44,820 bases of DNA from Acidimicrobiia bacterium. Its GTDB lineage: Bacteria; Actinomycetota; Acidimicrobiia; Spongiisociales; Spongiisociaceae. The position numbers were made by a program, and so were the translations under genes. Below, piece by piece: positions 14,587-44,820 of this stretch (position 1 is its first letter; each line of letters starts with the position of its first letter). The notes under the pieces were generated by a model. It was not told the origin of the DNA, ran no database searches, and saw nothing but the letters and a program-made list of their open reading frames with translations. The stretch is taken from the NCBI GenBank assembly GCA_009841105.1, contig VXMM01000014.1, positions 17,522-62,341 on the forward strand, in the 5' to 3' direction.

Positions 14587-14696
14587 GAGCCCTCCAATCC
14601 GCTGTCGACACCGAGCGCTCCGAACAATAATCGCGGCTCCCGGCCGGTCACATTTCCGCAGCAAGGGGCCAATTGGGCCCGAGGTAGAGACTGCTG

Positions 14697-14860
14697 GTGG
14701 TCTGTCTGTGGATTGGCGGTGTGGTATGGCGTCGGCAGCGGTGTTCCTCGCAAGGCCCGCTGACGAAGGCGTGCCCGCAGCGGCACGTTGAGGAAGCGGA
14801 ACACAACGAGGGGCGCCGATGACCGCCATAACACGCCTGGTCATTTCACAGACAGACCAC
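14697..14860 (+). repeat. 160-bp structured element, copy 1 (candidate ncRNA or hairpin mobile repeat)
   Basis: Intergenic region 14587-14901 holds a 164-base element that recurs at 44251. Terminal inverted repeats (P1) are 14697-14710 and 14847-14860, perfectly complementary over 14 bp. Inside: P2 gtgtt/aacac (14741-14745, 14800-14804), an 11-base bulge containing GCAAGG, P3 ccgct/agcgg (14757-14761, 14795-14799), an internal loop GACGAAGG/TTGAGGA, and P4 cgtgcc/ggcacg (14770-14775, 14782-14787) capped by a 6-base loop. It ends 41 bases before rhaM, so it could act in the rhaM leader. I match it to no family I know. Confidence 0.75.
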
Positions 14861-14901
14861 TAGATTCGAGCGAGCACCCAGACGGTTTGGAGGAGGCTTT
14901 C

Positions 14902-15216
14902 ATGCAGCGAGCGTGCTTCACGTTCGAGATCTATCCGGACAAGGCCGACGAGTACAAGAAGCGCCACGACGAGATCTGGCCCGAGTTGGTCGAGGAGATC
15001 CAGAGGGCCGGGCTCAAGAACTACAGCCTGTTCCGCCGCGGCACCCAGATCATCGCCTACGTGGAGGCCCACCCGGATGTCGCCACCGCCTTCGGCAAGA
15101 TCGGTGGCACCGAGGTGAACGCCCGCTGGTCGAAGTGGTTCGAGGATGTGATCCTCAGCCTCGTGGACGAGGACGGCAACCTCTACTGGGCCGAAGAGGT
15201 CTGGCACCTCGACTGA
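14902..15216 (+). CDS. rhaM: L-rhamnose mutarotase
   Basis: This 104-residue protein of the RhaM/YiiL family interconverts the alpha and beta anomers of L-rhamnose (or a related sugar) in the cytoplasm. Seen: ACFTFEIYPDKADEYKKRHDEIWPEL at the start, with the conserved Tyr and His, LKNYSLFRRGTQIIAYVE in the middle, and WSKWFEDVI...LYWAEEVWHLD at the end. AGGAGG (14891-14896) precedes the ATG at 14902 at normal distance. It is the most specific substrate clue in the window and supports deoxysugar use by the neighbouring genes. The 160-bp structured element lies directly upstream. Confidence 0.88.
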   Translation: MQRACFTFEIYPDKADEYKKRHDEIWPELVEEIQRAGLKNYSLFRRGTQIIAYVEAHPDVATAFGKIGGTEVNARWSKWFEDVILSLVDEDGNLYWAEEVWHLD

Positions 15217-43960: not shown

Positions 43961-44220
43961 TTGGAGGGCCGAGGCGGGATCGTCACCGGGGCCGCCAGCG
44001 GGATCGGGCGCGCTGTCACCATCTCCATGGCCGAGGCCGGGGCCCGGGCGGCGGCCATAGACCGGGACGAGCCGGGCCTTCGATCCACCTTGTCGGAACT
44101 ACCGGCGACAGTCACCTGCCGGTGGTATCGATCTCTCCAACACATCGTCCATACCGCATCTGGTCGCGTCCGCGGTGGAAGGTCTCGGCGAAGGTGTGGG
44201 CCGTCTAGGACGTGTTCACG
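43961..44220 (+). pseudogene. Broken SDR gene
   Basis: From TTG 43961 the reading LEGRGGIVTGAASGIGRAV...AEAGARAAAIDRDEPGL matches an SDR N-terminus and resembles the intact gene at 20945-21712 (LEGRGVIVTGAAQGIGRA). Near 44115 the frame shifts: the other frame continues with IDLSNTSSIPHLVASAVEGLG, the next SDR segment. SDR-like sequence stops near 44220 and the catalytic half (Ser-Tyr-Lys) is missing. The 160-bp element begins 30 bases later, so loss of the 3' part may be linked to it. Confidence 0.8.
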
Positions 44221-44250
44221 CTATGAGCGTTCGTTTGTTATCGCGGCCCC

Positions 44251-44411
44251 GTGGTCGGTCTGTGGGGTGGTGGTGGGATGTGGCGCCGGCAGCGGCGTCT
44301 ATGGCAAGGACTGCTGACGAAGGCGTACCCGCAGGTACGTTGAGGAGGCAGGACGCAGCCATGGGCGTCGATGGCGGTCCAGAGCACGCCGCCGCAACGC
44401 AGACCGACCAC
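44251..44411 (+). repeat. 160-bp structured element, copy 2
   Basis: This is a 161-base relative of 14697-14860 in the same orientation. P1 is 44251-44264 with 44398-44411; P2 gcgtc/gacgc (44295-44299, 44352-44356); an 11-base bulge with GCAAGG; P3 ctgct/ggcag (44311-44315, 44347-44351); the identical internal loop GACGAAGG/TTGAGGA; P4 cgtacc/ggtacg (44324-44329, 44334-44339) with a 4-base loop. Linker lengths match copy 1 (30 and 41 versus 30 and 42 bases). It lies between the broken SDR and the end of the acyl-CoA synthetase; together they fill 43905-44417. Confidence 0.75.
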
Positions 44412-44417
44412 GATCAG

Positions 44418-44820
44418 CTAGTTGAAAGCTTTGGTCTTGCCCTCCCAGTAGGGGGCCCGCAGCTTGAACTTCTGCAGCTTGCCGGTGGCCGTGCGGGCCA
44501 GCTCGTCGCGCATCTCCACCGACGTGGGGCACTTGTAGTGGGCGATCCGCTCCCGGCAGTACGCGATCAACTCCTCGGGCGTGGCGGTTGCTTCAGCCGC
44601 CAACACCACCAGCGCCTTCACCGTCTCACCCCACTTCTGGTGGGGCACCCCGATGACCGCCACCTCGGCCACGGCCGGATGCGAGAACAGAGCGTCCTCC
44701 ACCTCGATCGACGACACGTTCTCGCCCCCGGAGATGATCACATCCTTCTTGCGGTCGGTGATCACGTAGTAGCCGTCGTCGTCGACGTACCCGCCGTCGC
44801 CGGTGTGGAACCAGCCGTCG
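44418..44820 (-). CDS. AMP-forming acyl-CoA synthetase, C-terminal part
   Basis: Reading continues off the right window edge. Visible are GWFHTGDGGYVDDDGYY (A7/A8 region Asp), the hinge VITDRKKDVIISGGENVSSIEVED, VAVIGVPHQKWGETVKALVVL and the catalytic-lysine block ARTATGKLQKFKLR (Lys that adenylates the acid). The protein activates a carboxylic acid with ATP and CoA; pieces match medium-chain fatty-acid or aryl-CoA ligases. The stop at 44418 lies 7 bases from copy 2 of the structured element. Confidence 0.88.
   Translation of the reverse strand, partial: DGWFHTGDGGYVDDDGYYVITDRKKDVIISGGENVSSIEVEDALFSHPAVAEVAVIGVPHQKWGETVKALVVLAAEATATPEELIAYCRERIAHYKCPTSVEMRDELARTATGKLQKFKLRAPYWEGKTKAFN

Follow-up and report, generated by a model that had tools for sequence, protein, structure and literature searches.

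The hairpin element that occurs twice in the window (the whole 44,820-nucleotide stretch of DNA analysed here) is mobile. It is very probably a non-autonomous, TA-inserting element of the MITE type, approximately 165 bp long, which forms one long interrupted hairpin and probably owes its movement to an IS630/Tc1-type transposase acting in trans. Judged from sequence comparison across the phylum, it is the fold and the inner loops of this element, and not its letters, that appear to have been kept while it spread. A further possibility, which we put forward tentatively, is that the hairpin, folded as RNA or as single-stranded DNA, is a module with a function in mobilising itself together with some partner, and that it has been retained across the actinobacterial phylum; the family would then be defined by its fold and inner loops and not by its sequence.

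The hairpin and its two copies in the window

Copies 1 and 2 are 73% identical, and each forms one long hairpin of common architecture (Table 1). The fold of copy 1, computed over 14693-14865, reaches -108.8 kcal/mol and beats 200 of 200 shuffled sequences, while that of copy 2 reaches -116.7 kcal/mol. Forty-seven pairs are common to both folds: 33 are identical, nine are changed on one side (wobble) and five on both sides. The initial annotation had described a shared nested hairpin with compensatory changes between these two copies, and this description is borne out. The pair changes it gave for P1 (14703/14854, TA in copy 1 to GC in copy 2), P3 (14758/14798, CG to TA) and P4 (14773/14784, GC to AT) are as written. 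In P2, the two changes read as T-A to C-G appear as T-G to C-G wobble changes, and this stem contains two other, true double changes (14747/14810, CG to AT, and 14749/14808, CG to GC). Similarly, the statement that no change breaks a pair holds for the stems that had been named, but not for the outer stem, the middle of which is rearranged between the copies (approximately 14711-14731 with 14824-14846), where 15 of the pairs in copy 1 have no equivalent in copy 2. The bulge GCAAGG and the internal loop GACGAAGG/TTGAGGA are the same in both copies, again as first described. The initial annotation also saw a possible kink-turn in the loop beside P3; such a motif is a three-nucleotide bulge with sheared G-A/A-G pairs, and loop sequence by itself does not decide the matter. 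Around type B hairpins, both in the window and elsewhere, conserved sequence of unequal length on the two sides extends the element to a longer unit bounded by CTAG (Table 1).

Table 1. The two hairpin copies, their parts and the adjoining gene, in window positions. R1 and R2 are the covariance models described in the text.
Feature	Position	Strand	Basis
Copy 1 (type A), whole hairpin element	14697..14860	+	Fold z -9.2; boundaries drawn from ~90 copies plus empty sites in relatives
Copy 1, terminal inverted repeats			GTGGTCTGTCTGTG / CACAGACAGACCAC
Copy 1, structured core: P2, bulge GCAAGG, P3, internal loop GACGAAGG/TTGAGGA, P4	14736..14821	+	cmsearch: R1 104.8 bits, R2 89.9 bits
Copy 1, right copy of duplicated target TA (target CTAG)	14861..14862	.	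Right junction CCAC-TA-G; empty sites at other loci show the TA duplication
Copy 1, left target copy, now TG	14695..14696	.	TA in the same-site copy of a sister species (locus L057); flanks of L001, L032 and L057 compared
Copy 2 (type B), whole hairpin element	44251..44411	+	Fold z -8.3
Copy 2, terminal repeats			GTGGTCGGTCTGTG / CGCAGACCGACCAC
Copy 2, structured core	44290..44373	+	cmsearch: R1 95.1 bits, R2 95.8 bits
Longer CTAG-bounded type B unit	44205..44421	+	~42 nt conserved to the left and 6 nt to the right of the hairpin; same flanks, ending in CTAG, at most other type B copies of the own genome
Putative rhaM-like neighbour gene, outside the element	14902..15216	+	ORF with ribosome-binding-site-like GGAGG; name from the initial annotation

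Copy number, target site and mobility

The element ranges from 160 to 168 bp in length. The draft genome to which the window belongs (3.05 Mb) carries approximately 30 near-complete or partial copies together with many separate ends. Eight of the nine other genomes of the genus contain 19-48 matches each, whereas G007 lacks the element; it is also found in another genus of the family. Named records with the element are mostly MAGs of Acidimicrobiia, a class within the phylum Actinomycetota.

Insertion can be read directly from orthologous sites. An empty site has the sequence GAGGTC-TA-GGGCG, while its filled counterpart reads GAGGTC-TA-[GTGGTC...GACCAC]-TA-GAGGG, and three sites (L003, L007 and L008) are consistent with duplication of TA on insertion. 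The insertion target is TA, mostly within CTAG. In a one-contig genome of the same class (G326), 13 full copies lie at unrelated sites in the first 0.8 Mb. Every one of them measures 166 bp from TA to TA and sits in C-TA-G (13 of 13); eight are identical and five have one base changed. From these near-identical copies, the element moved recently in the G326 lineage. Within the genus set, the left flank of type A copies is CTA in 49 of 91 cases and altered in the rest, and the loss of the left TA from about half of these copies is a point against the reading proposed above.

The element has the short length (below ~200 bp), the multicopy distribution and the non-coding character by which MITEs are recognised, as well as terminal inverted repeats (GTGGTCTGTCTGTG/CACAGACAGACCAC and variants). 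Its core has a G+C content of 57-75% in hosts that are themselves G+C-rich, and so does not have the A+T-richness that is typical, though not defining, of MITEs (PMC2229807). A coding origin for the core was considered and rejected: the four frames tested gave no Pfam match above cut-off and one below it, and indels and stops break the frames.

Several other arrangements of the same sequence were observed. The own genome contains short hairpin-like pairs of the same ends, 58-80 bp in length (e.g. C14:26871-26950, C60:9075-9143 and C54:36272-36329). Copies also stand head to tail in tandem, repeating every ~162-166 bp and joined by 1 bp or by short odd junctions, in the own genome (C68:125296-125763) and at two further loci (L072:540-870 and L162:2176-2670). 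Finally, three relatives compared at the L004 site (L117, L118 and L121) have the look of a deletion scar, with just eight bases of one element end (GTGGTCTG) left.

Conservation of the fold and the level at which it is selected

A covariance model of the 85-nt core (R1), built from 40 diverse core sequences of two genera, and a second model (R2) recovered homologues in the own genome and in other actinobacteria, the search for which had been suggested at the outset. Among 395 sampled genomes of the class, 66 gave R1 matches, distributed over 38 of 184 genera. Applied to a sample of 396 genomes of the phylum, R2 matched 23, including 17 outside the class; the outside-class matches are single-model matches of 40-52 bits.

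The fold is retained over this range while the stems change. Fourteen of the 28 core pairs are changed on both sides in the 40 cores of the genus and its sister genus, and 20 covary in a class-wide alignment with distant members. When outside-class copies are included, double changes are seen at 26 of 28 pairs, with 254 cells against 75 expected from shuffles, in a combined alignment that, like the class-wide one, was fitted to a covariance model and so favours structure. None of 500 shuffles reached the observed value in any of the three cases. An independent check used the arms outside the model, comparing the pairing of each left arm with its own right arm and with those of other copies. 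The mean local score was 18.6 with the own arm versus 8.5 when swapped within the class, and 18.4 versus 9.2 outside it, with the own arm beating every other arm in 20 of 24 copies in the class and 13 of 20 outside. The arms of the outside-class copies checked have no evident sequence likeness to copy 1. Many distant copies are bounded by TAGTG...CACTA or close variants, and distant elements fold better than their shuffles (z -3.0 to -13.7). With the evidence of these models and arm comparisons, a wide range of the element across actinobacteria appears well supported.

The best-kept columns of the wide alignment are the GCAAGG and GGAACGC/GGACGC motifs with their closing G-C pairs. Mean information is similar in unpaired (1.07 bits) and paired (1.01 bits) columns, so just some loop positions are special. 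We know of no ordinary MITE with internal loops conserved across classes, and classification as a MITE may therefore understate what this element is.

The family is undescribed in Rfam, as had been supposed: neither the window nor 18 distant loci gave a match at gathering score, and a permissive search of eight distant loci was empty. Hits to the Rfam entries MIR918 and VA were weak, far below cut-off, and of the kind a long hairpin may give. No published description of the element was found among open-access papers, and no match was found in the plasmid records, phage records and viral contigs searched. Good copies are present in two MAGs assigned to other phyla, a Terriglobia MAG (L166:352-438, 89 bits) and a Gemmatimonadetes MAG (L243:3039-3125, 77 bits); these may represent mis-binned contigs or transfer between co-resident bacteria. 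An exact 19-mer of the element occurs in 25 loci of other organisms, but the fold accompanies it in L166 and L243 only and the remainder are attributable to chance.

The distribution of changes along the trees of three genus-level types indicates where selection acts. On internal branches, 154 changes keep or restore a pair and 50 break one; on terminal branches, the numbers are 269 and 238 (p = 2e-8). These effect sizes are approximate, given that the reconstruction is by simple parsimony and that recombination can spread shared variants. Summed over the three types, variants common to at least two copies favour G-T over A-C (43:16), whereas private changes from Watson-Crick pairs show no such excess (GT:AC 25:36). 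As G-T is the mildest mismatch in DNA too, this preference does not separate RNA from single-stranded DNA. Eleven sets of same-site copies contained 31 one-sided pair-keeping, 15 pair-breaking and three compensated changes, which are too few to settle selection after insertion on their own. Together, these patterns suggest retention of the hairpin in lineages that continue to spread and its decay in copies after landing, with one of the two strands being the one that folds. The hairpin thus looks to be selected in the spreading lineage and not at single sites. Selection on a folded strand, as first proposed from the two window copies, is strongly supported, and chance is excluded both for the fold (beyond 200 shuffles) and for the covariation seen with more copies (beyond 500).

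Two other accounts of this conservation have to be weighed. A structured RNA gene (ribozyme or aptamer-like) with an RNA function of its own could be riding on the mobile element, an idea that is compatible with the MITE-type reading and consistent with the loop motifs conserved across classes, the retention of G-U at certain pairs and the covariation of 26 of 28 pairs; the lack of any Rfam match even at permissive thresholds and of a conserved gene neighbour nonetheless makes it unlikely. Alternatively, the palindrome might be kept by a mutational process, such as template switching or gene conversion between the arms, with no function needed. Long inverted repeats can correct one arm from the other, and stems rich in double changes are what this would leave. 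Arm correction would, however, erase mismatched loops, yet the GCAAGG and GGAACGC/GGACGC motifs are among the best-kept columns; nor does it predict a G-T bias in shared variants that is missing from private ones. We consider this second account quite improbable.

The mobilising enzyme, gene context and comparison with known elements

The use of TA in CTAG and the duplication of TA point to an enzyme of the IS630/Tc1 type. IS630/Tc1-mariner is known as the bacterial type that both prefers TA in CTAG and duplicates just TA. The element inserts into TA, usually that of CTAG, and the TA is duplicated; in the mechanism we propose, an IS630/Tc1-mariner-type transposase would act on it in trans. A folded strand, be it RNA or single-stranded DNA in replication or transposition, would matter for propagation, because structure-keeping changes build up in spreading lineages and much less after landing; once inserted, a copy seems to drift.

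Searches for the enzyme returned no candidate with the ends of the element. PF13358 had no match in ten genomes of the genus, all of them drafts of 84-98% completeness. No autonomous IS with these ends was found in ~2.1 Mb of sequence or by searches with PF13358, PF01797 and PF13340, although drafts may miss it, and where matching ends lay 0.45-3.6 kb apart, no pair with the element's ends bracketed a transposase gene. Individual candidates were rejected for specific reasons. An IS5-family transposase in L257 has its end-like stretch inside the transposase gene; the IS630 element of L252 has different ends of its own; a 900-bp end pair in L237 consists of two separate copies; and a lone 51-nt right end near position 180744 of G326 is a fragment between metabolic genes. 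G326 also contains three identical copies of a 968-bp IS5-like element (C1 ~485005-485973, 491054-492022 and 494848-495815) with ends GAGCGCGCGCAGATAGGTG and flanking TAA. In its target this IS is similar to the hairpin element, whereas its ends are unrelated.

A REP/REPIN-type element moved as single-stranded DNA by a Y1 (RAYT/IS200-like) transposase would share the hairpin architecture and strand preference, but is very improbable given that the own genome has no Y1 transposase domain (PF01797) and that empty sites reveal a 2-bp TA duplication, which IS200/IS605 elements are not known to make.

Neighbouring genes were called with a home-made gene caller, and none is conserved beside the element. 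Among codirectional neighbours, its orientation is unbiased (41 same, 47 opposite), and intergenic copies lie in 23 convergent and 18 divergent contexts, with copy 1 upstream of the rhaM-like gene being one of the less common divergent cases. In 46 of 131 copies, about a third, a neighbouring gene ends at a TAG stop whose TA is the target duplicate and whose G is the first base of the element. Since the element starts with G, an insertion at the TA of such a codon recreates the stop, which accounts for survival at gene ends more readily than a regulatory role would. The initial annotation had suggested a possible regulatory leader from the 41 bases that indeed separate the end of copy 1 from the rhaM-like start (ATG at 14902). 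A cis-acting RNA leader for this gene, or several leaders forming a family, would also suit the strong fold of copy 1 and the preference for G-T among common variants, as in a folded RNA strand. This reading is nevertheless unsupported and the least probable of all, because the element occupies dozens of sites with unrelated neighbours and no orientation bias, is present or absent between sister species with TA duplication at orthologous sites, acquires private changes without a preference for the pair-tolerant G-T type, and in those 46 copies falls exactly on a gene's stop codon.

The element is of interest in several respects. A palindromic element of this kind makes it testable whether transposition needs a folded strand, and which molecule folds. 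A covariance model is available for annotating a repeat that is absent from Rfam, and G326 offers a recently active system in which to search for the partner enzyme. The initial annotation had listed, as grounds against its reading, a match to a known Rfam family or MITE, a lack of further homologues and a lack of significant covariation. The element matches no Rfam family and has both homologues and covariation, but it is of the MITE type, though unusually structured. The best reading is a TA-inserting MITE with an unusually deeply conserved hairpin and no Rfam match, for which a parent IS with shared ends was not found.

Several known elements resemble it in part. ERIC (IRU), the 127-bp palindromic element of enterobacteria, has TA ends with target duplication and is multicopy and mostly intergenic (PMC2229807). 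The present element is likewise short, hairpin-forming, multicopy and flanked by a duplicated TA, but differs in its sequence and hosts, its length of 160-168 bp, its GC-richness and the conservation of its internal loops from genus to genus and from class to class. Similarly non-autonomous, with TA ends and terminal inverted repeats, are RUP and Correia (NEMIS) elements, and RUP has ends in common with IS630-Spn1, which links the two (PMC2229807); for the present element no IS with shared ends was found, and its structure is far more conserved than its sequence. A preference of IS630 for TA in CTAG is attributed to Tenzen and Ohtsubo 1991, as cited in PMC2170065. The related ISY100 duplicates TA, and in a few of its products TA is retained at a single end (PMC2170065); a one-sided TA is seen in many of the present copies too. 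Unlike our element, IS630 and ISY100 are autonomous and encode a DDE transposase, none of which was found with the present ends. REPINs are hairpin-forming miniature mobile DNAs with compensatory changes (PMC3116915), which is a point in favour of the REPIN-type reading, and are tied to RAYT Y1 transposases, but the present element differs from them in its TA duplication and in a host genome free of the Y1 domain. Overall, common ends with a parent transposon are the usual basis for defining non-autonomous elements of bacteria; here it is the architecture and the loops that are kept, between genera and, as judged by covariance model, between classes, with the stems rewritten by compensatory change.
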